Source of the DNA: Zobellia galactanivorans
Lineage (GTDB): Bacteria; Bacteroidota; Bacteroidia; Flavobacteriales; Flavobacteriaceae
Reading direction: 5' to 3'
Assembly: GCF_000973105.1 (NCBI RefSeq)
Contig: NC_015844.1
Span: 2,476,501 to 2,540,500, forward strand
DNA length: 64,000 nucleotides
Numbering within the stretch: the first letter of the stretch is position 1; each line of letters begins with the position of its first letter. Made by a program: the position numbers and the translations under genes. The notes beneath the pieces are model-generated. The model did no database searches, was not told the origin of the DNA, and was given only the letters and a program-made list of their open reading frames with translations. Below are positions 45,403 to 59,438 of this stretch, piece by piece.

Positions 45403-46107
45403 ATGATAAGTTTTCCACTATTTGCAGGTATTGCCGCTGCCGTACTACATGTGGTTTCCGGACCGGACCACTTGGCCGCGGTTACGCCCCTAGCCATTGA
45501 AACCCGTCGTAAAGTATGGAAAATAGGTCTGTTTTGGGGTTTTGGACACTTGGTGGGAATGCTCCTCATCGGCCTGCTTTTTCTGGCCTTCAGGGAATAC
45601 ATTCCCATCGAAAGGATATCGGAGCACAGCGAGCAATTGGTCGGGGTGGTGCTGATCGCCATCGGGCTATGGGCCTTGGTCAGTCTCTTTTACAAGGCTA
45701 AAAACCACAAACATCCTCATGTACACGATGGGGACGAGCCCTACATTCATGTACATGAACACGATCATGATGCCAATAAACTCGAACACTCCCATCCCCA
45801 CGATAAAAAGGTAAAACAGAACGTTTGGTCCTCTTTTGGAATCGGCGTGCTGCACGGACTTGCCGGGGTGGCGCATTTTATTCTTCTTCTCCCGGTATTG
45901 GGATTCGAAAGTCAAGGGGACAGCCTTCAGTATATCATTGGCTTTGGCATAGGTACGGTTTTGGCCATGACCATATATACGTTTTTATTGGGGAAGGTAT
46001 CGGGCTATGCCAAGGGCCAAAGCAAATCACTTTTTAAGATGGTTCGTCTTTCGGGGGGACTCTTCGCCATTTTCGTAGGCGTCTATTGGCTGTATTTGGG
46101 ACTCTAA
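45403..46107 (+). CDS. UreH/HupE-type nickel (or cobalt) permease-like protein with His-rich loop
   Basis: The 234-residue membrane protein has six hydrophobic segments and the UreH/NicO pattern, with HVVSGPDHLAAVTPLA in the first helix (the HxxxxD-type metal motif) and GVLHGLAGVAHFILLLPVLG in the fourth. Between helices three and four lies a loop of about 45 residues with a very high His content, which could bind Ni2+ or Co2+. Its position at the end of the hydrogenase cluster suggests supply of nickel for the active site. It ends 4 bp into the convergent NHL gene. Confidence 0.8.
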   Translation: MISFPLFAGIAAAVLHVVSGPDHLAAVTPLAIETRRKVWKIGLFWGFGHLVGMLLIGLLFLAFREYIPIERISEHSEQLVGVVLIAIGLWALVSLFYKAKNHKHPHVHDGDEPYIHVHEHDHDANKLEHSHPHDKKVKQNVWSSFGIGVLHGLAGVAHFILLLPVLGFESQGDSLQYIIGFGIGTVLAMTIYTFLLGKVSGYAKGQSKSLFKMVRLSGGLFAIFVGVYWLYLGL

Positions 46108-47198
46108 AATTTCAAGTTGGTAAGCACTAGGCGGTGGTTGCCCGTATCGGCAATGATCAGCTTGTTCCCTTGGGTACAGATCGAAAAGGGCCAGTAGAGC
46201 GAACTTGAGGTGCCATGTAGGGTGTCCTTGTTTTCACTTCCCGTTTTAAAATCGCGCTTTCCGATGACGGCCGTGGCCTCGGCGTTGTGGGTCTTTGGAA
46301 TGGACTCGAACCACAATATCCTGCTGTTTCCCGTATCGTTTACCAAAAGGCCACCTTTATAAAAACAGGCATCGTAAGTCCAGTTTAAGGATCGTGCGTT
46401 AGGAAAGAGTCCGAATTGATTCTGCCCACAGGCATCAAAATCCGCTTGGCCAACGATTACGTCGGCCGGTTTTGAAAAGGCTTCTTCGGCATTGTTCCAA
46501 ACGAGGTTTCTGTAGAACTGCGTATCGGCGACGACCATTTGCTTGTTGGCGTTCACTTTAACCGAATAGGGCCAAATGGGTTCGTGGTTTTCGTAATCTC
46601 GGGTTGTAAAATCGGGCTTTCCGATGACCTTATCGGCTGTTTTATAGTTGGTTTTGGGGATGTCATGGTAAAAGAGGATCCTCCGGTTGCCGGTATCGGC
46701 GATCCAAAGCCGGGTGCCATCGGAAAAAACACCGTAGGGCCAATTCAAGCTTCGAGCAGAAGGGTCGTTTCCTATCCCGGCAACGTTGGGCTGGTTGGAG
46801 ACGAAGTCCGGCTGCCCCACGACCACGTCGGCCGCTTGGCCATTCTTTGTGGGCAGGGTATGCCAGATCAGCACCCGATGGTTCCATGCATCGCCGACGA
46901 TCAATAGATTGCCGTCGCTCCAAATGCCGGAAGGGTAGTGCAAGGTATGCTCCGATGCAAGTCCGCCCGAATTTCTTCCCGTTTCCTCCATGTCCGTCTG
47001 GCCCAGGACGACGTCAGGTTCCTGATACTCGGTGGTAGGCAGGGTCTTCCAGATAAACACCCGGTTTCGCCCTGTATCGGAAACAAAAAGATGGCCGTTG
47101 GCGACAAAGACACCCCGTGGTGCCAAAAAGGGAGTTTGCTCCGAACCTTTAAAAATATAGGAATTGCTAACGTTCGGACCTAAGGTTTCAAAATTCAT
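46104..47198 (-). CDS. NHL-repeat beta-propeller protein
   Basis: The 364-residue protein consists of about six NHL-type blades such as PRGVFVANGHLFVSDTGRNR, PSGIWSDGNLLIVGDAWNHR and PYGVFSDGTRLWIADTGNRR, each followed by an ADVVVGQPDF-like stretch, and ends with IADTGNHRLVLTNLKF. No signal peptide is visible, so it is cytosolic as predicted. It is the last gene of the hydrogenase run, 58 bp downstream of hypE. NHL-repeat genes have been described near high-affinity hydrogenases in other phyla as I recall; the role is unknown. Confidence 0.8.
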   Translation of the reverse strand: MNFETLGPNVSNSYIFKGSEQTPFLAPRGVFVANGHLFVSDTGRNRVFIWKTLPTTEYQEPDVVLGQTDMEETGRNSGGLASEHTLHYPSGIWSDGNLLIVGDAWNHRVLIWHTLPTKNGQAADVVVGQPDFVSNQPNVAGIGNDPSARSLNWPYGVFSDGTRLWIADTGNRRILFYHDIPKTNYKTADKVIGKPDFTTRDYENHEPIWPYSVKVNANKQMVVADTQFYRNLVWNNAEEAFSKPADVIVGQADFDACGQNQFGLFPNARSLNWTYDACFYKGGLLVNDTGNSRILWFESIPKTHNAEATAVIGKRDFKTGSENKDTLHGTSSSLYWPFSICTQGNKLIIADTGNHRLVLTNLKF

Positions 47199-47256
47199 GG
47201 ATAGGTATTTTCTCGGTCGGTACTTTTACGGACATCTTGGGTTTTTAATGTTCTGT

Positions 47257-48318
47257 TTAGCAGATCCTGGGTAATTGTTCACCGGGCAACATGCTGATGA
47301 CGCGTTTTCCGCCTATGGCACTTTCCATAATCACCTGCTTGGGGTGTTCGCCGACTACGCTTCCAATGATCCGTGCGTTTTTGCCCTTTTCATCTTGCTG
47401 TAATCGTTCCAAAACCGCATCGGCCGATGCTTCGGGGACAAAGGCGATGAAGAGCCCTTCGTTGGCCACATACAAAGGGTCGAGCCCCAAGAGTTCACAG
47501 GCGCTGGCCACTTGGTTGTCGATAGGTAGGTCTTTTTGAAACAGGTCGATTCCGATTTCCGACGATTGGGCTATTTCCTTGAGTACCGTTGCCACGCCGC
47601 CCCGTGTCGGGTCGGTCAATAGGTGGATGTCCCCTCCAAATTCATCGATCAGCTTAATGACCGTATGGTTAAGGTTGGTGGTATCGCTTTCAATCTCGGA
47701 ATCGAATTCCAGCCCTTCACGTACAGACATAATGGCCATTCCGTGCGAGGCGATATTTCCGCTGATGATAATTTTATCGCCTACCGCTATATTTTTGGCA
47801 CTGATATTGGCTTTCGGATGTATGGGGCCTACACCCGAGGTATTGACGAATATTTTATCGCCCTTTCCCTTTTCCACTACCTTGGTATCGCCGGTTACGA
47901 TTTGCACGCCCGCTTTTTCACAGGCGAATTTGATGGCCACTAAAATATCCCAAAACTCCTTTACGGGCAGGCCTTCCTCAATGATAAAGCTGAGGGACAG
48001 GTATTTTGGGGTGGCCCCGCACATGGCCAGGTCGTTTACCGTTCCGTTCACCGCAAGCTCACCGATGTTCCCGCCCGGAAAAAAGATGGGGGACACCAGA
48101 AAACTGTCCGTAGAGAAGGCGGTCTTGCCGTTGAGTTCAAGAAAAGCACCATCGTGTCTTTCGTTCAGGATATCGTTACTGAGCAGGTCAAAGACCCCGC
48201 TGTCCAATAGTTTGTTGGTCAATACCCCTCCGCTTCCATGCCCTAGGGTAATGACATCAAAGTCCAGTTTGGGCATGGGGCATTGCAGTTGCATGCGTAT
48301 TTTGTTGTTTTCTTTCAT
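47257..48318 (-). CDS. hypE: Carbamoyl-dehydratase HypE
   Basis: The 353-residue HypE converts the carbamoyl thioester on its C-terminal Cys to thiocyanate, the CN source of the NiFe active site. The ATP-binding AIR-synthase fold is shown by ITLGHGSGGVLTNKLL near the N-terminus and GDTKVVEKGKGDKIFVNTSG. It ends in LPGEQLPRIC with the required C-terminal Cys. It is separated from hypD by a RAYT gene and two palindromes, the nearest one 11 nt upstream of its ATG. Confidence 0.95.
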   Translation of the reverse strand: MKENNKIRMQLQCPMPKLDFDVITLGHGSGGVLTNKLLDSGVFDLLSNDILNERHDGAFLELNGKTAFSTDSFLVSPIFFPGGNIGELAVNGTVNDLAMCGATPKYLSLSFIIEEGLPVKEFWDILVAIKFACEKAGVQIVTGDTKVVEKGKGDKIFVNTSGVGPIHPKANISAKNIAVGDKIIISGNIASHGMAIMSVREGLEFDSEIESDTTNLNHTVIKLIDEFGGDIHLLTDPTRGGVATVLKEIAQSSEIGIDLFQKDLPIDNQVASACELLGLDPLYVANEGLFIAFVPEASADAVLERLQQDEKGKNARIIGSVVGEHPKQVIMESAIGGKRVISMLPGEQLPRIC

Positions 48319-48329
48319 TTTTTTCGGTC

Positions 48330-48362
48330 AGACCTCACGGGTCTCCAAGACCCGTGAGGTCT
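48330..48362. repeat. REP-like palindrome, copy 1
   Basis: A perfect 15-bp inverted repeat AGACCTCACGGGTCT with 3-nt loop CCA. Arms match copies 2 and 3 exactly. It lies 11 nt upstream of the hypE start codon and about 90 nt downstream of the RAYT stop. Confidence 0.92.
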
Positions 48363-48395
48363 CATTTTTTCGGTGAGACCTGATGTTTTTAGTTC

Positions 48396-48428
48396 AGACC
48401 TCACGGGTCTTCAAGACCCGTGAGGTCT
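48396..48428. repeat. REP-like palindrome, copy 2
   Basis: Same 15-bp arms as copy 1 with loop TCA. It is 33 bp from copy 1, and 23 bp downstream of the RAYT stop. Partial half-sites follow at 48429-48450 (TGAGGTCT and AAGGTCT). Confidence 0.92.
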
Positions 48429-48451
48429 CATGAGGTCTCCTATAAGGTCTA

Positions 48452-49012
48452 TTATTCTAAAGTTAAACTTTTTTCCAGTTCCATTTTTTTGTTCAAATGG
48501 GCATGTACAAAATTGGACCTGTCTTCGAACAGCCCTAGTATAAATTCCCGATCGAGCTTCGAGGGCAAATCGGACAAATAACTTGAGTACGAAGAATACT
48601 TGTACCTTCTAAAATCATTGGTAAACCCGTGGTGTTCGGGATTCAAATGCACATACACGATCAAGTTTTTAAGGTAGTTTTCGTCTTCTATTCTCTTTCT
48701 TCGGAATCTGTCCCGAAAAAGACTTCCCGTGCGTTCATAGGCCTTGTTTATGGCCTTGGCATAGGAGTTGAACAGGTTGGATAGTTTTTGTGAAATCACC
48801 TTGTCGGCCACATTTTCATTGAATTTCAAGACGATGTGAAAATGGTTTTTCAATAAACAGTAGGCGTATATGTCGCTTATGGCATCGAGGTATTTGTACA
48901 TTAATCGAAGGAAGTAGGCATAATTCCTACCTTCAACAAAGATGTCCTCTCCGTTGTTTCCCTGATTGTAGATATGATAGTATTGGTCCGATCGTATCGG
49001 TTCGTATTGCAT
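48452..49012 (-). CDS. REP-associated tyrosine transposase (RAYT, Y1/HUH family)
   Basis: Starting at MQYEPIRSDQYYHIYNQG gives 186 residues; this is the usual start of the family, and it leaves a 49-bp gap after hypD. The alternative ATG at 49072 would overlap hypD by 11 bases. The HUH pair HFHIVL and the catalytic Tyr in LIVYVHLNPEHHG are intact, with the terminal LFEDRSNFVHAHLNKK. RAYTs cut and join single-stranded DNA at REP palindromes; two palindromes lie immediately downstream. The gene separates hypD from hypE, in the same orientation as the operon. Confidence 0.88.
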   Translation of the reverse strand: MQYEPIRSDQYYHIYNQGNNGEDIFVEGRNYAYFLRLMYKYLDAISDIYAYCLLKNHFHIVLKFNENVADKVISQKLSNLFNSYAKAINKAYERTGSLFRDRFRRKRIEDENYLKNLIVYVHLNPEHHGFTNDFRRYKYSSYSSYLSDLPSKLDREFILGLFEDRSNFVHAHLNKKMELEKSLTLE

Positions 49013-49061
49013 TTGGATATGATTTAGTCTATACCTGAAACCCCTTGTCCCGATGGGGTCG

Positions 49062-50156
49062 TTATGCTTCAACCATTCCCGAAAAGTGATAGTAGGCGGC
49101 GCAGGCCCCTTCGCTGCTCACCATGGGTGCGCCCAAGGGATTCGTAGGTTTGCATGTTTTGCCGAACTGCGAACACTCAAATGGTTTTTTGATGCCCTTC
49201 ATGATCTGTCCCGAAATGCATAAGGGGTTTTCGGGAGCTTCCGTTATACTGACCTCGTATTTTTTGGTGGCATCGTATTCGGCGTATTTCTCGCGTACCG
49301 CATAGCCACTATCGGGAATTTCACCGATACCGCGCCACATTTGGTGGCGCACCTCGAACACTTCATTGATAATCTTTTGTGCTTCTGTATTTCCCTCCTC
49401 CCGAACGATACGGGCATACTGGTTTTCGACTTCCGATTTGCTCTGTTCCAACTGGCGGATGACCATCAAGATACCTTGAAGCACGTCCAAGGGCTCAAAG
49501 CCGGTTACGACGATAGGCACCTTGTATTCGGCCGATAGCGGGTGGTACTCCGTATTGCCCATGATGGTACATACATGGCCTGCGGCCAAAAATCCGTCGA
49601 TCTTACTTTCCTCGTCCTCCATAACCGCCTTTATGGCCGGGGGCACCAATACATGCGATGCTAAGATGGAATAGTTTTTTACTCCTCTATGATGGGCATG
49701 CACAACGGACAGGGCATTGGCCGGAGCCGTAGTTTCGAACCCCACGGCAAAGAAAACCACTTCTTTATCAGGATTGTCCTTCGCAATTTTCACGGCTTCC
49801 AAAGGAGAATATAAAATCCGTATATCGGCCCCTTCGGCCTTGGCTTCCAAAAGACTCTTTTCGGAGCCCGGTACGCGGAGCATATCGCCAAAGGAACAAA
49901 GGATTACGCCCTTTTCCGTAGCCAGGTGAACGGCTTTGTCGATCAGGTTCAAGGGAGTAACGCAGACCGGGCAACCGGGCCCATGGATCATGGTGACCTT
50001 ATCGGGCAACATGTCGATGATGCCGTTCTTTACCAGACTGTGGGTCTGCCCGCCACAGACTTCCATAATGGACCAAGGCCGGGATACGGTTCTTTTTATT
50101 TCCTCCAAATACTTTTTTGCCAACGCGGGATCGCGGTATTCCGACATGTACTTCAT
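49062..50156 (-). CDS. hypD: Hydrogenase maturation factor HypD
   Basis: The 364-residue HypD carries the Fe(CN)2CO unit with HypC. Characteristic blocks are MEVCGGQTHSLVKNG, HGPGCPVCVTPL, VVFFAVGFETTAPA, GHVCTIMG and the [4Fe-4S]-binding C-terminal region with ECSQFGKTCKPTNPLG-like (FECSQFGKTC) and SSEGACAAYYHF. Six bases separate its ATG from the hypC stop. Internal Met4 is a possible start. Confidence 0.96.
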   Translation of the reverse strand: MKYMSEYRDPALAKKYLEEIKRTVSRPWSIMEVCGGQTHSLVKNGIIDMLPDKVTMIHGPGCPVCVTPLNLIDKAVHLATEKGVILCSFGDMLRVPGSEKSLLEAKAEGADIRILYSPLEAVKIAKDNPDKEVVFFAVGFETTAPANALSVVHAHHRGVKNYSILASHVLVPPAIKAVMEDEESKIDGFLAAGHVCTIMGNTEYHPLSAEYKVPIVVTGFEPLDVLQGILMVIRQLEQSKSEVENQYARIVREEGNTEAQKIINEVFEVRHQMWRGIGEIPDSGYAVREKYAEYDATKKYEVSITEAPENPLCISGQIMKGIKKPFECSQFGKTCKPTNPLGAPMVSSEGACAAYYHFSGMVEA

Positions 50157-50162
50157 AGTTCG

Positions 50163-50441
50163 CTAGTTATCGGTTTTGGGTAAATATTCATCAACGTCTT
50201 CCAGGTCGCCCAGTTCCCCGATTTCCTCGAGGTATTTGAACGTTTTTTGGGCCTCTTCCTCGTCCACCTTACTGATCGCGACACCCACGTGCACCAAGAC
50301 ATAGTCGCCTACATCGGCATCGGGAAGCATCTCTAGACTGGCTTCCTTGGTGATACCGCCAAAAGATACTTTGGCCATACGCACCATACCGTCGTATTGC
50401 GATTCGATACTCTTTATTTTACCTGGAATTGCTAAGCACAT
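50163..50441 (-). CDS. hypC: Hydrogenase assembly chaperone HypC
   Basis: The 92-residue HypC starts MCLAIPGKI with the essential Cys2 that binds iron with HypD and the large subunit precursor. The OB-fold continues with KVSFGGITKEASLEMLPDADVGDYVLVHVG, typical of the family. The C-terminus is acidic. It lies 3 bp downstream of hypF. Confidence 0.95.
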   Translation of the reverse strand: MCLAIPGKIKSIESQYDGMVRMAKVSFGGITKEASLEMLPDADVGDYVLVHVGVAISKVDEEEAQKTFKYLEEIGELGDLEDVDEYLPKTDN

Positions 50442-50444
50442 AAT

Positions 50445-52706
50445 TCAATTTTTAATATACTGATGATAGCATAATTGTCCGAACGAAATGTTCTCGTCGT
50501 TACTAGACAATATACGATTAAATTTTAACTTGATGCCCTGTTTTTGCGCTAGTTGCGACAGTTTTTCGACCAATACCGAATTCTGAAAAACACCACCGCT
50601 ACAGGCTATGGTTCCGCAATGGTTTTGTCTTGCCGTTTTTAAAATCGATAGGGCCAGGGTATGGATAAAACCATGCGCGATTTGCGATTTGGCGAGTCCT
50701 GCTGTTTTTGCTTTTAGGATGTTGGCCGTAAGTATTCTTGTAGGGATGTTTTGGGATGCCCTTCCTTCCAAAAAATCGATAGGATCGCCGCCCGTGTAAT
50801 TTCGGGCCTCGTTTTCCAAAAGCATGGCGGCCTCACCTTCGTAGGAAGTGTTGTCGCATATATCCAAAAGGGAGGCCACGGCGTCGAACAAACGGCCGAC
50901 GGAAGAGGTTTTTAGGGTGTTTTTCTTCAACATTGTGTTGTAGACCTTCCATTCGGTTTGCGAAAATTTATGGCGAACAACTTCCCTTTCGCTTTCGGGA
51001 AGCATACAGAGCAAGGACAAACGGGGTTCCTTGGCCATTTTGTCCGCAGCGATCCAATCGACATATTCAAAATGGGCCAAGCGTTCTATCCTTCCGTTTT
51101 CAAAAACAAAGAACTCACCGCCCCAAATGGCACCGTCGTCGCCTAACCCGGTACCGTCCCAAACCGTTCCCAGTATTTTTTCTTCGGTCTCGAAGAGGCG
51201 ATGCTCTCCCAAAACGCTGGCGAAATGGGCTTTGTGGTGTTGAATCGGGTACAGTTCGGCCTTCCATTTATCGGCCAGCTCCCTGCCCATAATACTGCTC
51301 TGGTATTGGGGGTGGGCATCGATCAAAACGATTTCGGGCCGTGTTTCGAAGAGGGAGGTGAATTTTGTGATGCTTTCTTGATAGCGCTGTGAGACCTCGT
51401 AGTTGTCGAGGTTTCCGAAATAGGGACTCACATAGGTATGCGTATTGGGAACGAAACCAAAGGAGCTTTTGAGGTGGGCGCCCATGGCCAATACCTTTTG
51501 GTTGCCCGAAAGGGGACTATTCAAATAATTCGGGGCCAAGCCGCGTGAACGCCGTAGGGTAATCCGTTGTTCGCCGGCAAATCGCACTACCGAATCGTCC
51601 TGGGGAAAGGAGATGTTTAGATTGTGGTGTACAAAATAGTCGGCAACGCCCGATAACTTTTGAATGGCATCTTCGGCCTCGCAAATGATGGGGGAGCCAT
51701 GGATGTTTCCGCTCGTGGCGATGATGGGTATTTTTAAGGCATCCATCAAAAGGGTGAGCAGGGCGGAAGAGGCCAACATTGCCCCCAATTGGTCCAGCCC
51801 TGGAGCTATGGCTCCTAGTGCCAAATCGGAGATGTTTTTTTTCGGATTGAGAATGACAATGGGGCCGGCCGAAGAAGTAAGCGCCTTTTCCTCCGCAGTA
51901 CCAAGTTCGAAGTCCTTTTTTATTTTTTCGAGGGATGGGTAGAGGAGGGCAAAGGGTTTGGTGGGACGTTGTTTTTTTTCACGCAAGCGCCCTATGGCCG
52001 TTTTGTTGTTGGCATCGCAGCAAAGCAAATAGCCGTTCGTGTTTTTAAGGGCCACGATTTTTCCCGACAGAATAAGCCCAGAAACCTTTTTGATAATCCC
52101 AGGGGTGTCGGTTGCTATGGGGATTCCGTCCGCAGTCGTCAATCGTAATTGAATGCCGCATTCAGTACAACTATTGGTCTGTGAATGAAAGCGTCGGTCG
52201 TTGGGGTCGGTGTACTCGGTTTCGCATGGGGTACACATATGAAATTTGGACATGGTTGTATTTGCCCGTTCAAAAGGAAATTTGGTGGTTATGGCATACC
52301 GCGGTCCGCAATGGGTACAGGTGGTAAAGGCATAGCCGAAGCGCCGATGGGCCGTATTTCTAATCTCGGATTTGCAGGATTCGCAAATGACAAAATCGGG
52401 CGTTAAGGGAATGTCGATCTGGTGTTTGCTTTCCGAGGGAAGGATCCTAAAATCGGAATAGGAACGCAGGGGAAGCTCGGATAGGCTGTGGGATTGTATC
52501 ACGGAAATGGCCGGGGCCTTTTGCAACAGGGCGTGCAAGAACTCGGTGGCCCTTTCTTCGGAGGCGCTTATATGGATCAACACCCCATTTTCATTATTGC
52601 AAACCATGCCTTTTAATCGATATTGATGCGCCAAACCATAGACAAAGGGGCGAAATCCGACTCCTTGTACCTGCCCCGAAATAATGATTTGAAAAGTTTT
52701 TTCCAT
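50445..52706 (-). CDS. hypF: Carbamoyltransferase HypF
   Basis: The 753-residue HypF transfers carbamoyl phosphate to the C-terminal Cys of HypE. It has an acylphosphatase domain (MEKTFQIIISGQVQGVGFRPFVYGLAH), two zinc-finger-like CxxC clusters (CESCKSEI, CTHCGPRYA, CTPCETEY, CTECGIQ), a YrdC-like domain (about 200-370) and the Kae1-like carbamoyltransferase domain (HHKAHFASVLGEH, DGTGLGDDGAIWGGEFF, ACSGGVFQN). I chose MEKTFQII at 52706; an upstream ATG at 52739 would translate part of a palindrome. Confidence 0.96.
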   Translation of the reverse strand: MEKTFQIIISGQVQGVGFRPFVYGLAHQYRLKGMVCNNENGVLIHISASEERATEFLHALLQKAPAISVIQSHSLSELPLRSYSDFRILPSESKHQIDIPLTPDFVICESCKSEIRNTAHRRFGYAFTTCTHCGPRYAITTKFPFERANTTMSKFHMCTPCETEYTDPNDRRFHSQTNSCTECGIQLRLTTADGIPIATDTPGIIKKVSGLILSGKIVALKNTNGYLLCCDANNKTAIGRLREKKQRPTKPFALLYPSLEKIKKDFELGTAEEKALTSSAGPIVILNPKKNISDLALGAIAPGLDQLGAMLASSALLTLLMDALKIPIIATSGNIHGSPIICEAEDAIQKLSGVADYFVHHNLNISFPQDDSVVRFAGEQRITLRRSRGLAPNYLNSPLSGNQKVLAMGAHLKSSFGFVPNTHTYVSPYFGNLDNYEVSQRYQESITKFTSLFETRPEIVLIDAHPQYQSSIMGRELADKWKAELYPIQHHKAHFASVLGEHRLFETEEKILGTVWDGTGLGDDGAIWGGEFFVFENGRIERLAHFEYVDWIAADKMAKEPRLSLLCMLPESEREVVRHKFSQTEWKVYNTMLKKNTLKTSSVGRLFDAVASLLDICDNTSYEGEAAMLLENEARNYTGGDPIDFLEGRASQNIPTRILTANILKAKTAGLAKSQIAHGFIHTLALSILKTARQNHCGTIACSGGVFQNSVLVEKLSQLAQKQGIKLKFNRILSSNDENISFGQLCYHQYIKN

Positions 52707-52730
52707 GGTTTTGAATACAGACCGACCTAC

Positions 52731-52763
52731 AGACCTCACGGGTCTTAGAGACCCGTGAGGTCT
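52731..52763. repeat. REP-like palindrome, copy 3
   Basis: Same 15-bp arms as copies 1 and 2, with loop TAG. It lies in the 87-bp gap between hypB stop (52794) and hypF start (52706), 24 nt upstream of the hypF ATG. Confidence 0.92.
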
Positions 52764-52793
52764 CTTGTCTTGAGAGATTCCTTTTACGAAGAC

Positions 52794-53567
52794 CTATCCT
52801 TTCTTTTGTTTCACTTTTTCCAACAACCAGTTGCACCATTCGTCGATACCTTCACCGGTAGTCGAAGATATTTGCAGCACTTCGATTTCATGGTTCACTT
52901 CACGCGCATCCTTGGTAACGGCTTCTACCGAAAAGGGCACGTAGGGAAGCAGGTCGGCCTTGGACACCAGCATCATGTCGCTGGTCAAGAACATTTTGGG
53001 ATATTTTTTGGGTTTGTCGTCGCCCTCGGTAGTGGCCATCAGGGTCACTCGGTAGTCTTCGCCCAAATCAAAGGACGAGGGGCAGACCAAATTGCCGACA
53101 TTTTCAATAAAGAGCAGATCGATGTTTTCCAAATCGAACTGGTCCAATACCTGGTGTACCATTTGCGCTTCCAAGTGGCAGATGCCGCCGGTTACGATCT
53201 GCAGGGCCTGAATGCCCGTTTCTCGAATACGGTCGGCATCCCGCTCGGTTTCGAGGTCACCTACCATCACGGCGATGTTTATCTTGTCTTTCAGCTTTTC
53301 GGCCGTTTTTTGCATAAGGGTCGTTTTACCGCTTCCTGCCGAGGAGGTAATATTGATTAAAAGGGTGCCGGTCTTGGCCATTTCCTTTTTGATGATATCG
53401 GCCACAAAATCATTGGCCTTGAGCAAATGGATGTTCGTGTTTTCACATTGCACGGTACCTCGTGCCGCTTTCGTTGATTTTTCTACCATTTTCTTTCCTT
53501 TTTTTGAGTGACCCTTGGGGTCGTAATTCCTTGTTATAATCGGCTGGCCGCTAGGCTCAGTCTTCAA
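52794..53567 (-). CDS. hypB: Hydrogenase nickel incorporation GTPase HypB
   Basis: The 257-residue GTPase inserts nickel with HypA. It has a P-loop SSAGSGKTTLMQKTAE, switch MVGDLETERDADRIRE, the metal/dimer-site region GGICHLEAQMV and LVCPSSFDLGEDYRV, and SKADLLPYV. The N-terminus lacks the CXXCGC motif and the His-rich stretch of some HypB, so it has only the G-domain nickel site. Its start overlaps the end of hypA by 11 bases. Confidence 0.96.
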   Translation of the reverse strand: MKTEPSGQPIITRNYDPKGHSKKGKKMVEKSTKAARGTVQCENTNIHLLKANDFVADIIKKEMAKTGTLLINITSSAGSGKTTLMQKTAEKLKDKINIAVMVGDLETERDADRIRETGIQALQIVTGGICHLEAQMVHQVLDQFDLENIDLLFIENVGNLVCPSSFDLGEDYRVTLMATTEGDDKPKKYPKMFLTSDMMLVSKADLLPYVPFSVEAVTKDAREVNHEIEVLQISSTTGEGIDEWCNWLLEKVKQKKG

Positions 53568-53904
53568 ATTCTACTTTGTGGATCAGCATTTCCTCGCCTT
53601 GGATCACATTTTTGCTGGGCCGGTCACAATTTTCACAGATAAACCGATAGTTCTGCACGTCGGTAATATGGTTGCAGACCTCACATTGGATCTTTAAAGG
53701 GGTCGATTCTATGTGCAGTTCCACATGGTGGTACCCCGGGTTGCTCAAATGATAGGCGCTATAGGCATTGTGCAAAAGGCGGGGTTCAATGTTCGATAAG
53801 ACCCCTACTTTCAAATGAATGGCCTTCATTTTATTTAATTTTTCCCTTTCGAACTCCTGTTCCAAGGTGCGCATAATGCTATTTACGATCGATGTTTCGT
53901 GCAT
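53557..53904 (-). CDS. hypA: Hydrogenase nickel insertion protein HypA
   Basis: The 115-residue HypA begins MHETSIVNSIM with the conserved His2 and Glu3 that form the nickel site. The zinc loop contains CEVCNH and CENCDR. It ends 11 bases into hypB, so the two are coupled, and shares one base (53904) with the stop of the upstream TPR gene. Confidence 0.95.
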   Translation of the reverse strand: MHETSIVNSIMRTLEQEFEREKLNKMKAIHLKVGVLSNIEPRLLHNAYSAYHLSNPGYHHVELHIESTPLKIQCEVCNHITDVQNYRFICENCDRPSKNVIQGEEMLIHKVEFED

Positions 53905-55385
53905 TAAATTAAACTTTTTACTTTTTCCAATTCCTCTAAATGCTGATCCGCCTGGGCAATCAGGTTTTTGTCGTCGACCAAGGTTTTGATCTCTTCGGCC
54001 TTGGCCTTCATTTCTTCGTATTTTTTCAGTTCTTCGGAACTGTTTTCGTTGTGCGTGAGCCAGCCCAGTTCCAATTGGTTCAATAGGGTGAGGGCCCGCT
54101 CGAAGGGATATTCGCTTGCCGTTCGTATTTCGAGGGCCTCGTTGAAAAGTCCCGCCGCCTTCTCCAGGTTGTCGTGGATTTTTGCCGGGGGAAAATGCAT
54201 CAGGGCCGTTGCATAATTGTGGCTGGCCATGGCATGTTCGTACGGGTATTTATCCTTGGTATAAAAAGCGAGTACCTCTTTGAAGGAAGAAGCACAAAAG
54301 GCCGTCCACATGGGTTTTTCTTCTGAGGATACCGGAATTTCCGAATAGATAAGCGCCAAATTATGGTGTACATCGGCAAATTTCTGCGGATGCGTATCGC
54401 GCTTAAATACCTTTAGAACGTCTTGGAAGGCGTTAATGGACGCCTTGTAATACTGTGGATTGCCGTTCTTTGACCAGGTGTACAAAAGAATGGCTTTTTT
54501 ATACATGGCTTCCCCTAGGAATTCGGGAATATCTTCCTTTCTAAAATATTGGATCGCCCGGTTGATGAGTTCCTTCGAAGCGATAAAATCTTTCTTGAAA
54601 TTGGCGATTTCCGCGGCATCCACCAATAACATACCGGCCTGTACACTAAGGCCTTTTTCCTCGAAATAGGCAATGCAGCCCAGTTGGAGTTCATGGACTT
54701 CATTTAATTTTTCGGGGTCATGGGGCATTTGTAACTGAGCCATTAGAATGCCGGCCAAATGGCTGTTCATGGCATTTTTGGCATCGTCGGAAACAGCGAT
54801 TTTCAGTTGCTCTTCCACTAATGCTTTGGCCTCCTTCAATTCTCCCGCATCCAATAACAAGTTCAGGTAATGTTTTGCGGTAAAAACCTTGACCTCGTCG
54901 TTTTCGGCTTTTGTTAGGGCTTCGATAAATCCCTTTTTAAGCTCGGCATGTCCTTGGGAGGGCGTCACGGCACCGTAATAATTGATAATGGCGCTATTGT
55001 GGGCCGAGGTGTTGTAGCAGAAATCGATCATGTTGGTCGAAATCTCGTAACCGAACTGTAAATGGGTCGCAATCAGAAGGTGATGGTACAGGGGTGATGC
55101 TTCCGAAACAAATTCAAAAGCCTTCTGATGGTTTCCCAATTTGTAGAAAACCAAGGCGAGCAAATTTTTGGGAGTAAACGGAATCTCAGGAAACACATAG
55201 GGCGGTTCCAGGTCGTACCAATCCAAGGTAACCGATAGGGTGTCGGTATCGGCCGTTAGCATTTTTGTGTCGCCTATATTTTCAGGAGCCTCGGTTACCG
55301 TAACCAGTTCATCGAGCCGGTCGACGCTCCCAATCGCATCTTGTACTTTTTGAAAGGCATCAGTTGTCGTTAATATCGTAAGCAT
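53904..55385 (-). CDS. Uncharacterised helical repeat protein in the hydrogenase operon
   Basis: The 493-residue protein is soluble and mostly alpha-helical, with TPR-like repeats from about 100 onwards (for example NHQKAFEFVSEASPLYHHLL and KYPYEHAMASHNYATALMHFPPAK). No signal peptide, no membrane segment and no cysteine motif are visible. The start overlaps the end of the 85-residue gene by 26 bases, and its stop shares a base with the hypA ATG, so it is coupled on both sides. It probably helps assemble or scaffold the enzyme; no function is known to me. Confidence 0.75.
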   Translation of the reverse strand: MLTILTTTDAFQKVQDAIGSVDRLDELVTVTEAPENIGDTKMLTADTDTLSVTLDWYDLEPPYVFPEIPFTPKNLLALVFYKLGNHQKAFEFVSEASPLYHHLLIATHLQFGYEISTNMIDFCYNTSAHNSAIINYYGAVTPSQGHAELKKGFIEALTKAENDEVKVFTAKHYLNLLLDAGELKEAKALVEEQLKIAVSDDAKNAMNSHLAGILMAQLQMPHDPEKLNEVHELQLGCIAYFEEKGLSVQAGMLLVDAAEIANFKKDFIASKELINRAIQYFRKEDIPEFLGEAMYKKAILLYTWSKNGNPQYYKASINAFQDVLKVFKRDTHPQKFADVHHNLALIYSEIPVSSEEKPMWTAFCASSFKEVLAFYTKDKYPYEHAMASHNYATALMHFPPAKIHDNLEKAAGLFNEALEIRTASEYPFERALTLLNQLELGWLTHNENSSEELKKYEEMKAKAEEIKTLVDDKNLIAQADQHLEELEKVKSLI

Positions 55386-55617
55386 CTTTGTCTACTTTTT
55401 GTGTGCCTCGGGGGTCTTTGGCCGCCGTCAACATCATGTTTCTTCCATAAATCTCGGCCAGGCGCTCTGTCCTATAATCCCCAATGGTCTGAATTAAGAC
55501 CTGTTTCGGGTCTTTGGTGTTGATGAATATCAGCGAAACTTCCCAACGGCCTTTGACCGGGGTAACCTTGTACTGTACCTCGGCATCTATCAGCCAATTG
55601 TTGTTTTGTTTCGTCAT
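55360..55617 (-). CDS. Uncharacterised small protein in the hydrogenase operon
   Basis: The 85-residue soluble protein (NNWLIDAEVQYKVTPVKGRWEVSLIFIN) has a mixed beta/alpha composition. No family recognised. It starts 4 bp within the end of the previous gene (55614-55617) and overlaps the next by 26 bases, so it is translated in a tight series. The reading frame is intact and its codon use is like its neighbours. Confidence 0.65.
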   Translation of the reverse strand: MTKQNNNWLIDAEVQYKVTPVKGRWEVSLIFINTKDPKQVLIQTIGDYRTERLAEIYGRNMMLTAAKDPRGTQKVDKDAYDINDN

Positions 55618-55934
55618 CTAACAGCCACCTTGATTAAACGGGTCTTTTCAATAATTTCATAGTCGAGTTCCCTATCCGTCATATCCAGATCGTTATCTAT
55701 CAACAACTCGCGAACGGCAAGGGTCTTGTCACCCTTTAAGTTACGCGTTTTCAATAGAAACTGCGTGGGTTTGTACATTTTTACGAACCACTGGCTCGTG
55801 ACGGGCGTGATCAAAATAGTGCCCTGTTCCCTTACATAGGTTACATAGGCATATTGGGTTTCTCCAAAAATGGGGGCGATCAACTCATGGTCTAAGTAAA
55901 TATGGGAAGTTTTTAGGCTGATTCTAGGGTTCAC
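55614..55934 (-). CDS. Uncharacterised protein in the hydrogenase operon
   Basis: The 106-residue protein reads MNPRISLKTSHIYLDHELIA and ITPVTSQWFVKMYKPTQFLLK; it is soluble and beta-rich. No family recognised. The start overlaps the protease stop by 4 bases (ATGA type) and its end overlaps the next gene by 4 bases. Position after the protease suggests a maturation or electron-transfer accessory role, as inference. Confidence 0.65.
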   Translation of the reverse strand: MNPRISLKTSHIYLDHELIAPIFGETQYAYVTYVREQGTILITPVTSQWFVKMYKPTQFLLKTRNLKGDKTLAVRELLIDNDLDMTDRELDYEIIEKTRLIKVAVR

Positions 55935-56410
55935 GAGGGTATCGGTAGCTTTAGGTCTTCCAAAATGTGTTGTACAATTTTGTCCCCGGCGTCTTTCACT
56001 TCATCGCTAAGGTCTACCTCTAGCTTCGTATTTTCTATGGCCACTAGGTACACTTGAATGTCTTCGGGATATTCGTCTTGCATTATCTTTTTGGTGTACG
56101 ACAAGGCCTGGTCCCACTTCATGCCGTGCAAGAAGACCATGGGGTCGTCTTGCGGAGCTTTCATAACCTCTTCGGCGGGAACCTTGAACAAGGTACCTAC
56201 AGGTTCATTGCTGTTAAGGACCGCATCTACCAAAATGATCCTGTCGTGTCCTTTTAAGCCGAAAAGCACCTCAAAGGCCGCGGTGCCCATGTCAAAAATG
56301 CTGATGTCTTCCGTTTCGGGGAGTTTTTTTCGCAGTTCTTCGATGACGTAAATACCTACCGCATCATCGCTACGTACGGGGTTTCCGAAGCCCATTATGG
56401 CCGTCTTCAT
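55931..56410 (-). CDS. [NiFe]-hydrogenase maturation protease (HyaD/HoxM type)
   Basis: The 159-residue endopeptidase removes the C-terminal tail of the large subunit after nickel insertion. It begins MKTAIMGFGNPVRSDDAVGIYVIEEL and contains VDAVL and FLHGMKW. In HycI the nickel ligands are Glu, Asp and His; here the first is Asp in the SDDAVG block, and the others fit Asp in ILVDAV and His in FLHGMKW. It lies 82 bp downstream of the large subunit, and a palindrome occupies the gap. Confidence 0.9.
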   Translation of the reverse strand: MKTAIMGFGNPVRSDDAVGIYVIEELRKKLPETEDISIFDMGTAAFEVLFGLKGHDRIILVDAVLNSNEPVGTLFKVPAEEVMKAPQDDPMVFLHGMKWDQALSYTKKIMQDEYPEDIQVYLVAIENTKLEVDLSDEVKDAGDKIVQHILEDLKLPIPS

Positions 56411-56433
56411 ATGCTTTCTTGTTTTAGATATAA

Positions 56434-56466
56434 AGACCTCACAGATCTCTAAGATCTATGAGGTCT
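56434..56466. repeat. REP-like palindrome, copy 4 (divergent)
   Basis: Arms AGACCTCACAGATCT/AGATCTATGAGGTCT pair at 14 of 15 positions, with loop CTA. The outer half is the same as copies 1-3; the inner part differs. It sits between the large subunit stop (56493) and protease start (56410), 23 nt upstream of the latter. Confidence 0.85.
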
Positions 56467-56492
56467 AAGGTAATCATTATCGAAATCCGTAA

Positions 56493-58085
56493 TTATAGTT
56501 TAAATCGGGATAGTTCAACACCACTGTTTGCATCATGGGCATGTACGGTACATACCAGGCACGAGTCGAAGGAACGCGCCACGATACCCACTTCAACGGG
56601 ATCTGACGGATCTTCTATCTCGGTGCCCAACAGGGCGGTTTCTATAGGTCCGGGGTTATCGTTACCGTCTTGCGGACCGACATTCCATGTGGTCGGCGCC
56701 ATGACTTGGTAGTTTTTGATCACACCGTTTTCGATTTCGATCCAGTGGGCGAGGGCACCACGTGCCGCCTCGGTAGCACCGAAACCTTTGCCGTCTTTCT
56801 CAACAGGTTTTACGTAGAACTCACCGTCCAAATCGATTTCCGATAACCATTTTTCAATAAAGGTGTAGATTCTCGGAGCCTCATGTACCCTGGCCAATAC
56901 CCTGGTAAATACACTGGGGCCTAGCTTTTTAATTATATCGCCAAACAAAGGGTCTTGAATTTGATGGTCTTTGTTGGCCGGGTTAGCGTTCATGATGGCA
57001 CGGGCCAATGGTCCGGCTTCGGCGGCATGGCCGTCGTAACGAGGCGATTTGGACCAACTGTATTGGTTGTCAAAATCGGTTTCGTGCAAGGTCTGCGATT
57101 TCATGGGCGTTGGTAAGGGCTCGTCCCAAGGGTGGAGCCCGTCTTTTTGATTATCGTACCATGAATGCTTCACGTGCTCGCTGATCTTCATGTGGTCGAA
57201 CTCGTGATAGTTCTCGCCGTCGAAGAATCCGCTCGAGGAAATCAAGGCGGCATTTCTACCTTCGATGGTCGGGTTGTTGTACATGTCTTTGTGCAAGTAG
57301 GTTCCTGTTGCCAAGAACTTGCCCACACCTTGACCGAATTTATCCAATCCGAACTCGATTCCTGCACGTATCAATAGGCCTAGATCACTGTTTTTCTGTG
57401 ATTCGTTCTCTTCGACCCACGCCAACATATCGTCCCAGGTCTTGATTTCCATGTAACGTTCAATGGAACAACCTAGCCAAACGGGTTCCAGCCAATCGTT
57501 TTTGAACTGGGCCAGAATGGCATGCGCCCTTGTAATATCCTTAAGGGTAGGGGCACACATAACACCGCCCGGAACCATATAGCTCGAGTGGGGCCATTGG
57601 CCACCGAACAGGGCGTAGATCTGAACAGGCAGTCCACTGGCGGTCAATCCTATTTGAAAGGTTTCGCCAACGTAGGCGGACCAGCGTTTTACTACTTCCT
57701 TATATAAAGGTTTATCGGCATATTTTTTATTCGCCAAATCGGTCGCGAAGATAGCGTAGAACCATCTGGGGATACTTTGTAGGGTTTCCGAAGCTTGGCC
57801 TATGGCCCTTAACAAAAGGGCATTGGGCGTTAGTTTGGTACCCCAAGCGGTATCAAGTGCCGACGAGGCGCAATAAAGGTGCGATCCTCCGCAGATTCCA
57901 CAAATCCTTGGCGTAACTACGAGTCCCGATTGGGGGTCCTTGCCCGCCATTATTTTCTCGAAGCCCCTGAACATCGCAGCTTGCGTATGGGCACGGGTCA
58001 CTTTGCCGTTGTCGATATAGACTTTTACGTCCAAATCGCCCTCAACACGGCCAACAGGAGATATATTTAATTCTTTAACTGACAT
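56493..58085 (-). CDS. [NiFe]-hydrogenase large subunit (group 1h/1l-like)
   Basis: The 530-residue catalytic subunit holds the Ni-Fe site. The L1 motif RICGICGGSHLY has Cys62 and Cys65 with His69; L2 at the C-terminus is DSCLVCTVH with Cys509 and Cys512. A 15-residue tail after His515 (AHDANSGVELSRFKL) should be removed by the protease encoded downstream. The overall sequence resembles the actinobacterial-type high-affinity (Hhy/Huc) subunit; group 1l, described in Bacteroidota, is also possible. No signal peptide; it is cytosolic. It follows the small subunit by 21 bp. Confidence 0.93.
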   Translation of the reverse strand: MSVKELNISPVGRVEGDLDVKVYIDNGKVTRAHTQAAMFRGFEKIMAGKDPQSGLVVTPRICGICGGSHLYCASSALDTAWGTKLTPNALLLRAIGQASETLQSIPRWFYAIFATDLANKKYADKPLYKEVVKRWSAYVGETFQIGLTASGLPVQIYALFGGQWPHSSYMVPGGVMCAPTLKDITRAHAILAQFKNDWLEPVWLGCSIERYMEIKTWDDMLAWVEENESQKNSDLGLLIRAGIEFGLDKFGQGVGKFLATGTYLHKDMYNNPTIEGRNAALISSSGFFDGENYHEFDHMKISEHVKHSWYDNQKDGLHPWDEPLPTPMKSQTLHETDFDNQYSWSKSPRYDGHAAEAGPLARAIMNANPANKDHQIQDPLFGDIIKKLGPSVFTRVLARVHEAPRIYTFIEKWLSEIDLDGEFYVKPVEKDGKGFGATEAARGALAHWIEIENGVIKNYQVMAPTTWNVGPQDGNDNPGPIETALLGTEIEDPSDPVEVGIVARSFDSCLVCTVHAHDANSGVELSRFKL

Positions 58086-58106
58086 TTTTGATTCTTTAAG
58101 GTTCGG

Positions 58107-59066
58107 TTATTTTGAAGTTTCCTGTACTCGCTTGTTCGAAGGCATGATCTTTTGGAAACCTGCCTCCATGTAATAGGCTAGTTTAGTTCTTCCTTCAGGA
58201 ACCTCTTTTGGAAACGTGCCCATATATTTCATGGTTTTCATAACACTTCCCTTTTTGAGGTCGTGGTGCGGGAAACCGGGTTCGGTACAACCAAGACAGG
58301 GGTGATTGGCCCGTGTCTTACTTGACTGTCTGTTCCAAAGAATGTTGTTACAGCTAGCCCTGGTCATTGGTCCTCTACAACCAACCTCATAGAATAGGCA
58401 TCCGCCACGCCTACCAAAGCCACCATCTACTTTTTGTGCAAAGTTGACCACGTTGGTACAACCGGTCTGCACAAAATCGGTAAAGAAGGTTTTTGGCCTA
58501 TGGTAATCGTCGATTTGAACATCGCCAATCCTTCCTACGGCAATGGCCACAAGAATTTGCGTGATCCAATCGGGGTGGGCCGGACAACCGGGAATATTAA
58601 TCACCGGCAAGCCTCCCTTGGAAACGTAGTCGGCCCCTAGGAAACCGCCTTTGTTTTTCTTATGGAATTGCAATCCGGTAGACTCACTGGGGTTCGGAGG
58701 AACCGCAGGTATACCTCCCCATGTTGCGCAATCGCCGATAGCGACGACATAACCCGCAACTTCCGAGAGTTCTTTAATCCAGTCCATCATCGGACGGTCG
58801 GCGAAATAGTTCATTGTACCCGTGTTGTTCGGGCCTTGGATCAACGAACCTTCGTAAACAAGAATGTCCATCTGTACCTTACCGGCAAGGATATCCTTTA
58901 AGAGGTCTTGAACTTGGTCCCCGATCTGTAAACCCGTTGTGGGGTGCCATAAAATGTTGAGGCCGAAGTCGGTAATAAGCTCCACTACCGTGGGTTCTTC
59001 GGCATTTAAAAAGGACATGGTGTTGCCACTGCATGCACCTCCTTGCAACCATAATACATTTGCCAT
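58107..59066 (-). CDS. [NiFe]-hydrogenase small subunit (group 1h/1l-like)
   Basis: Beginning at MANVLWLQGGACSGNTMSFL, the usual start in this lineage, gives 319 residues; an in-frame ATG at 59126 would add 20 residues without the RRxFxK Tat motif. The protein carries the Fe-S clusters. The block GGACSGNTMSF replaces the CxxC of ordinary small subunits with Cys12-Ser-Gly-Asn, as in the oxygen-tolerant group 1h enzymes where an Asp replaces a Cys at the proximal cluster. Later Cys are in GDCATWGG, GCPAHPDW, FVQTGCTN, GCLFYEVGCRGPM and HPCLGCTEPGFP. It is the first gene of the operon. Confidence 0.93.
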   Translation of the reverse strand: MANVLWLQGGACSGNTMSFLNAEEPTVVELITDFGLNILWHPTTGLQIGDQVQDLLKDILAGKVQMDILVYEGSLIQGPNNTGTMNYFADRPMMDWIKELSEVAGYVVAIGDCATWGGIPAVPPNPSESTGLQFHKKNKGGFLGADYVSKGGLPVINIPGCPAHPDWITQILVAIAVGRIGDVQIDDYHRPKTFFTDFVQTGCTNVVNFAQKVDGGFGRRGGCLFYEVGCRGPMTRASCNNILWNRQSSKTRANHPCLGCTEPGFPHHDLKKGSVMKTMKYMGTFPKEVPEGRTKLAYYMEAGFQKIMPSNKRVQETSK

Positions 59067-59438
59067 ATTCTTATGAAATATTTGGTTTGGAAACATTAAA
59101 GTATAAATATGACACTTATTTAGCAAAATAATTATGATATTCTCATTAATTTGGAATATATCTAAATAATATGTAAGGCTATTCTGATGTTTTGTTGTAA
59201 AGGGGGTGGATTGTAAGGAAATCGTGCTTTTTCGGAAGATGTTCTTGGTCTTTTGAGTTTCTTGATCGTCTGTGGGTTTGCGTCTTGGGTGTATGTAAAT
59301 CTTCGGTAGAATAGGATTTAGAAAACCTGATTAAAATCATATTTTGTAAGAAATTAAGACCCGATTTTTGAGGGTTTAGTTTTGGTTTTATGGACGAAGA
59401 GGTTCACTAGGGTCAAATCATCACAAAAATTATATGTT
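59067..59438. other. Divergent 372-bp intergenic region between hydrogenase operon and the 604-residue gene
   Basis: AT-rich spacer that must hold both promoters. On the plus strand TAGTTTTG at 59377-59384 matches TAnnTTTG (54 bp before the ATG at 59439). For the minus strand the nearest match is a single-mismatch TTATTTTG (plus 59124-59131). No FNR-like or other palindromic operator was clearly seen. Confidence 0.5.
59377..59384 (+). promoter_or_regulatory. Putative -7 element of the 604-residue gene
   Basis: TAGTTTTG matches the Bacteroidota TAnnTTTG. No TTTG at normal -33 spacing was found, so this is weak. Confidence 0.35.

Follow-up and report, generated by a model that had tools for sequence, protein, structure and literature searches.

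Huc, a group 2a hydrogenase of Mycobacterium smegmatis, is reported to bind menaquinone and to reduce it directly (PMC10017518). All three clusters of its small subunit, HucS, are described as [3Fe-4S], and the menaquinone head group is held beside the distal cluster by Tyr301, Tyr229 and the backbone of Lys212 (PMC10017518). HucE has been put forward as the protein that carries electrons for Huc, and HucM as the conduit for quinone; the structural work presents HucM as both scaffold and quinone tube, and Huc without HucM is still active but loses its oligomeric form (PMC10017518). A Bacteroidota-associated radiation within group 2a, with 34 genomes, has been drawn by Islam et al. (PMC7784904), and this lineage itself is thus already known. 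Here we describe a [NiFe] hydrogenase operon of Zobellia galactanivorans in a stretch of 64,000 nucleotides (contig NC_015844.1, positions 2,476,501 to 2,540,500; hereafter the window), which very probably belongs to that radiation. Judged from sequence comparison, the subunits place the operon in group 2a, and the cluster stands out as a variant in that it is missing the genes for HucE and HucM. We consider it fairly probable that the operon encodes an uptake hydrogenase of the Huc type, which passes electrons straight to menaquinone with the help of neither protein.

Group assignment and menaquinone site

The large subunit, the single match of its kind in the whole genome (one contig of 5,521,712 bases), aligns with M. 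smegmatis HucL over its full length at 676 bits, against 131 bits for structure 5aa5, which we take to be HofG of group 1h. For the small subunit, the match to HucS reaches 459 bits and spans chain residues 47-352. Among the plasmid matches listed, the large subunit of Mycobacterium intracellulare is 59.4% identical, that of Sphingopyxis alaskensis (Sala_3198) 55.5% and a C. necator enzyme 31%. Consistently, a 36-row tree of large subunits places the window protein inside a 24-row clade (support 99/99) together with HucL and Sala_3198. HofG and three Flavobacteriaceae enzymes of 625-631 amino acids (aa) form a separate clade (100/100), in which HofG is the sole named 1h row and the other three are presumed to be 1l. 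Long branches are flagged for HoxC, Ideonella, HofG, HoxH, L137_486 and the Thermoactinomyces row, and the joins with HoxC and with Ideonella, the latter beside the 24-row clade, may be false; joins within the 24-row clade are unflagged.

The comparisons below draw on 74 related loci, 73 from Bacteroidota and one encoding a distant Bacillota enzyme, and on ten plasmid 2a clusters. These ten were taken from the 17 matches with at least 53% identity among 40 matches listed, and seven were left out; two are from Bacteroidota and eight from elsewhere (Mycobacterium, Thermus, Sulfobacillus and five Alphaproteobacteria). The HucS sequence used carries Tyr, Tyr and Lys at positions 301, 229 and 212, which verifies the residue register. 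Tyr301 is conserved in all 72 Bacteroidota small subunits, Lys212 and Gln200 in 71 each, Tyr229 in 70 (one Phe, one gap) and Asn15 in 68 (three gaps, one Arg). The window protein keeps all five residues, as do the small subunits of all ten plasmid clusters. Of five proteins from other hydrogenase groups, four have Cys and one has Asp at position 15, and all have His at position 200; Tyr301, Tyr229 and Lys212 occur in one, two and one of them, respectively. Because Tyr229 and Lys212 are also seen in other groups, they are weak markers, and Asn15, Gln200 and Tyr301 are stronger ones. Asn15 presumably replaces the fourth proximal Cys and Gln200 the distal His; the 1h/1l-like small subunit of locus L134 retains both of these ligands.

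The proposal of direct menaquinone reduction is built on these conserved residues together with the missing genes, from which activity, H2 affinity, cluster type and the quinone reaction itself are inferred. A cytoplasmic group 2a enzyme would split H2 at its large subunit. Electrons would then pass through three clusters of the small subunit, predicted by likeness to Huc to be [3Fe-4S], to a menaquinone held near the distal cluster by the tyrosines equivalent to HucS Tyr229 and Tyr301. The resulting menaquinol would supply the aerobic respiratory chain, and menD is found in the genome. Neither the NifU-Rieske protein HucE nor the HucM quinone stalk would be needed, and the products named here u85 and u106, as well as a TPR-like protein, would act as assembly or accessory factors rather than as carriers. 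The initial annotation of this DNA had named direct reduction of a quinone, as reported for Huc, among its options and had assigned the enzyme to a trace-H2-type lineage; the conserved quinone-site residues argue for the former, and the latter is supported at the level of lineage. The enzyme encoded by the Zobellia cluster can probably burn traces of H2.

HucE, HucM and the small-subunit tail

In the Mycobacterium chimaera 2a cluster, the gene upstream of hucS encodes HucM (match to 7uus_Q, E 2.9e-34), which contains the Pfam domain DUF1641, and between the TPR and NHL genes lies a gene whose product fuses NifU and Rieske parts, matching the description of HucE. Profiles of both were built from the same fetched clusters that they were then run against, and the informative side of the comparison is the empty Bacteroidota side. 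The HucE profile matches in all eight non-Bacteroidota 2a clusters and the HucM profile in three of them. In the 73 Bacteroidota loci neither profile finds a match (best E 0.82 for HucE); 61 of these loci extend 3 kb or more upstream of the large-subunit gene and 6 kb or more beyond it downstream, and 56 hold both the TPR and the NHL genes. The remark in the initial annotation that the operon encodes neither a cytochrome b-like membrane protein nor a carrier resembling HucE holds and, for HucE, extends to the 73 Bacteroidota loci.

Whole genomes give the same picture. DUF1641 has no match in the Z. galactanivorans genome, and three of 14 control genomes did match. Among 23 whole genomes, for five of which completeness is stated, DUF1641 matched once (G018; 22 bits, 20 of 39 positions, just above the cut-off), which we take as chance, and the HucE query met NifU-like and Rieske-like pieces but never both at one place. 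The unassigned frames near the loci were also grouped. The widest family, a TetR-like regulator named by eye and from the annotation of a Runella relative, occurs in 28 loci, followed by an antisense frame (15 loci), a bifunctional-nuclease-like family (8) and a 76-aa family (8). A ferredoxin-like Cys motif occurs in three frames in three loci, and no other carrier-like gene recurs among these frames. In the literature covered, with supplements, figures and most subscription journals outside it, loss of HucE or HucM in Bacteroidota is not named.

The missing genes coincide with a difference in the small subunit. An ED(M/I)F tail ends the small subunits of all eight HucE-bearing 2a clusters and is found in none of the 72 Bacteroidota small subunits and in neither of the two Bacteroidota plasmid ones. 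We guess that the tail is a docking or assembly signal for HucE; common descent alone would also account for the split. More broadly, and as a tentative proposal that we hold at slightly less than even confidence, the phylum-wide 2a branch may be a bare menaquinone reductase that needs neither HucE nor HucM for trace-H2 respiration, with the ED(M/I)FV tail a docking or assembly signal lost along with HucE, and with the two subunits, the protease, a u106-like protein, the TPR and NHL proteins and the hyp genes as the common core of Huc systems.

Several points weigh against direct menaquinone reduction. Deletion of hucE or hhyE in M. smegmatis is reported to reduce H2 oxidation and the double deletion to abolish it (PMC6883350), so that the absence of HucE could mean another electron route. 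No membrane adapter was recognised in the cluster, although quinone must reach a soluble enzyme. Tyr229 is not particular to group 2a, since it is also Tyr in two of the five other-group proteins, and the window small subunit is without the tail of other 2a enzymes. Furthermore, as of 2020 Islam et al. knew of no reported H2 oxidation for the Bacteroidota 2a enzymes (PMC7784904). Regarding HucE itself, 9.5% of surveyed hydrogenase-bearing species are reported to be without both HucE and HhyE, with Bacteroidota not named in the accessible part of that survey, and the authors of the HucE/HhyE study offer maturation as another possible role. The NifU part of HucE suggests that the protein may serve cluster assembly, in which case general Nfu proteins could replace it.

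Accessory proteins, alternative routes and integrity of the operon

The genes for u106 and u85 are conserved in 71 and 69 of the 73 Bacteroidota loci, respectively; in two of the loci without them the sequence ends less than 400 bases downstream, and in the remaining two it begins less than 450 bases upstream. Outside Bacteroidota, the u106 profile gives one clear match (L096, E 1.3e-5), and six further matches are weak (E 0.046 to 1.0). The matches fall within the frame of the protease or at the gene position that follows it in these 2a clusters, and the Sulfobacillus cluster gives none. Profile comparison by hhalign relates u106 to a Sphingopyxis protein (92.3%) and to the C-terminal part of the M. 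chimaera maturation protease protein (86.4%; L080:15680-16450). The fusion of a u106-like part to the mycobacterial protease points to a maturation role for u106. The u85 profile has a match in M. chimaera at E 3e-7 and a weak one in Sulfobacillus at E 0.02, with none in the other six of the eight non-Bacteroidota clusters; hhalign relates it to the M. chimaera relative at 95.6% (E 1.1e-8). A common ancestry of u85 and u106 was considered and is not supported by profile comparison. The AlphaFold model of u106 has a predicted local distance difference test score (pLDDT) of 95 and that of u85 one of 78, with a low-confidence tail. A fold search with the models gave no match at E 0.001 (best 0.6 for u106 and 0.017 for u85), weak hits of B3-domain and dsRNA-binding-like kind being set aside, and PDB sequence searches with u106, u85 and the u85 profile gave nothing at E <0.1. 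The alignments used as input for structure prediction held 66 of 70 u85 frames and 63 of 63 u106 frames plus the window protein, and the u106 query was without its first residue.

These conserved proteins raise the possibility that u85, u106 or the TPR protein replaces HucM as a membrane or quinone adapter, an explanation that overlaps with direct menaquinone reduction and that we regard as rather doubtful. The wide occurrence of u85 and u106 in Bacteroidota favours it, as do the presence of u85 in just two of the eight non-Bacteroidota clusters and the position of a u85-like gene upstream of the small-subunit gene, the side where mycobacterial hucM lies, in 30 Bacteroidota loci (usually 650-970 bases off; a second u85 copy lies downstream in eight loci). 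However, M. chimaera carries a u85 relative as well as HucM, hydropathy detects no membrane stretch in u85 or u106, and u85 as a form of HucM finds no support in profile comparison (probability 0.4%, with a HucM alignment of three rows only).

An unlinked carrier elsewhere in the genome, either a separate Rieske protein or a ferredoxin, could also take electrons from the 2a enzyme, and we judge this unlikely. Three places elsewhere in the genome do encode Rieske proteins, and the lower H2 uptake of M. smegmatis on loss of HucE (PMC6883350) would fit such a route. However, one of these Rieske proteins follows a nitrite/sulfite-reductase-like frame, one resembles a Rieske lipoprotein and the third lies in a 543-aa frame; no Rieske domain fused to NifU was found in the 23 genomes; and the conserved quinone-site residues argue for a route in which menaquinone is reduced at the enzyme.

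It is also conceivable, with low probability, that the cluster is silent or broken in Zobellia. Two strains with 1l enzymes are reported to have consumed no substantial H2 in tests (PMC10305171), and the operon contains a REP-associated tyrosine transposase-like gene and palindromes, neither of which the initial annotation had pointed out. The product of this gene scores 50 bits against NF047646, under the curated cut-off of 80, and the gene is present in three of the 74 loci (L007, L008 and L016); in the Maribacter loci L006 and L009 the cluster continues across its site without insertion. The entire 5.5-Mb genome has three palindromes with the exact stem, each of them inside the operon, beside the REP-type transposase-like gene, and related palindromes lie inside the operons of L006, L007, L008 and L016. 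Nevertheless, the frames are open, and other genera carry a large subunit with 99% identity to the Zobellia one.

Of 397 genomes sampled from the family, 15 carry the large subunit, as do three of nine genomes of the genus, that of Z. galactanivorans included. For the DNA from the small-subunit gene to the protease gene, identity is 92.0% with Maribacter thermophilus and 92.6% with Pseudozobellia thermophila, compared with 82% for a stretch of rpoB; with Zobellia uliginosa it is 91.6%, compared with 96.7% for rpoB. For Maribacter sp. MMG018 the two values are 91.5% and 82.0%, and for Maribacter sp. PR1 79.9% and 80.7%. This comparison used rpoB as the one housekeeping gene, and the Pseudozobellia and Z. 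uliginosa genomes were paired with their loci by coordinates. The DNA likeness to the M. thermophilus locus ends near the boundaries of the cluster. Across genera the hydrogenase DNA is more alike than rpoB, and within the genus it is less alike. These values are best explained by an apparent exchange of the cluster among Zobellia, Pseudozobellia and Maribacter, which are marine Flavobacteriaceae.

The placement in group 1h or 1l given by the initial annotation, which had merged Huc (group 2a) with Hhy (group 1h) (PMC6883350), agrees with the lack of a Tat signal and with the involvement of high-affinity lineages, but it is rejected almost beyond doubt by the 676 bits to HucL versus 131 to 5aa5, by the tree position and by the proximal Cys and distal His of the L134 small subunit. 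A position of the large subunit outside 1h/1l had been given by the initial annotation itself as a refuting outcome.

Operon layout and comparison with known systems

The hydrogenase genes form a run on the minus strand from 59066 to 46104 with open frames, in the order small subunit, large subunit, protease, u106, u85, TPR, hypA, hypB, hypF, hypC, hypD, transposase-like gene, hypE and NHL (Table 1). The subunits, protease and NHL protein on one strand, as well as the full hypA-F set, were thus correctly read at the outset, and the subunits are without a Tat signal or membrane helix, as first noted: no twin-arginine motif is seen by eye and no helix-like stretch by hydropathy. The small-subunit alignment with HucS begins at the ATG at 59066, whereas the mechanical open reading frame begins at a TTG at 59126. 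From the protease gene through hypB, successive frames overlap by 1 to 26 bases, which fits one transcript. Plus-strand genes on both flanks (45403-46107 and 59382-61253) indicate that no carrier gene is co-transcribed from outside and that the unit is complete within the window; a co-transcribed Fe-S carrier gene immediately outside the window had been named at the outset as a refuting finding.

The large-subunit gene recurs in all 74 loci and the small-subunit and protease genes in 73 each, and such recurrence shows that the gene set is not a chance one. Gene order differs among the loci, with the hyp genes inverted or upstream in some. The convergent gene at 45403-46107, probably encoding a permease with nickel as its presumed substrate, has counterparts in 38 of the 74 loci, and a relative adjoins hypA in Sphingopyxis. 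The divergent 623-aa product has no Pfam, NCBIfam or PADLOC match.

Table 1. Features of the hydrogenase operon and its flanks (window coordinates)
Feature	Coordinates	Strand	Basis
Probable nickel permease (DsbD_2/UreH-like), convergent with the operon	45403..46107	+	PF13386; six membrane-like stretches (hydropathy)
NHL-repeat protein	46104..47198	-	PF01436; 56/74 loci
HypE	47257..48318	-	Likeness to annotated genes of plasmid 2a clusters
33-nt palindrome (REP-like)	48330..48362		
33-nt palindrome (REP-like)	48396..48428		
REP-associated tyrosine transposase-like gene, between hypD and hypE	48452..49072	-	NF047646, E 2.5e-13
HypD	49062..50156	-	Likeness to annotated genes of plasmid 2a clusters
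HypC	50163..50441	-	Likeness to annotated genes of plasmid 2a clusters
HypF	50445..52739	-	Likeness to annotated genes of plasmid 2a clusters
33-nt palindrome (REP-like), hypF-hypB junction	52731..52763		
HypB	52794..53567	-	Likeness to annotated genes of plasmid 2a clusters
HypA	53557..53904	-	67/74 loci; resembles annotated hypA
TPR-like protein, 493 aa	53904..55385	-	TPR_12 under its cut-off; relatives in 71/74 loci and five plasmid 2a clusters
u85, 85-aa putative accessory protein without Cys or His	55360..55617	-	Conserved in Bacteroidota loci
u106, 106-aa putative accessory protein without Cys	55614..55934	-	Conserved in Bacteroidota loci
HycI/HupD-type maturation protease	55931..56410	-	PF01750, TIGR00072
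Diverged palindrome copy, between large-subunit and protease genes	56434..56466		
Hydrogenase large subunit (HucL-type), 530 aa, C-terminal stretch after DSCLVCTVH	56493..58085	-	HucL match, tree
Hydrogenase small subunit (HucS-type), 319 aa from ATG	58107..59066	-	Oxidored_q6, NiFe_hyd_SSU_C; HucS match
Divergent gene, 623 aa	59382..61253	+	Beside the operon in 1/74 loci (Zobellia uliginosa)

Groups 1h (Hhy, HofG) and 1l are likewise trace-H2 uptake lineages of aerobes; they stand in a separate clade of the tree, and the one small subunit compared (L134) differs in its proximal and distal ligands as described above. In three Flavobacteriaceae loci with 1h/1l-like hydrogenases (L134, L135 and L136), a run of small hydrophobic-looking proteins is seen by eye between the subunit genes. 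A scan of 296 Bacteroidota genomes for 1h-type enzymes at E 1e-40 gave no match; it included no positive control and is given no weight here.

Within group 2a, the available portions of the report on the Bacteroidota radiation (PMC7784904) do not mention the absence of HucE or HucM. M. smegmatis Huc (PDB 7UTD/7UUS; PMC10017518) and the window enzyme are alike along the length of both subunits and have the Asn/Gln ligand changes and the menaquinone-site tyrosines in common; the window differs from Huc in having no HucM, no HucE and no ED(M/I)FV tail on the small subunit, a tail seen in M. chimaera. The M. chimaera cluster has the protease, TPR, NHL and hyp genes and relatives of u85 and u106 in common with the window. 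The 2a enzyme of Sphingopyxis alaskensis is reported to consume H2 to sub-atmospheric levels (PMC10305171). Like the window, its cluster has a u106-like protein after the protease and no HucM gene in the plasmid stretch fetched; unlike the window, it encodes a NifU-Rieske protein (HucE) and additional small products, and its small subunit bears the tail. Group 2a genes are reported to have high RNA:DNA ratios in seawater (PMC10305171), and because the cluster seems mobile as one block between genera, marine heterotrophs could gain the use of H2 through it. In comparison with Huc, the Bacteroidota clade keeps the quinone site with both proposed helpers missing, so that the need for each can be tested by deletion in a marine alga-associated bacterium.

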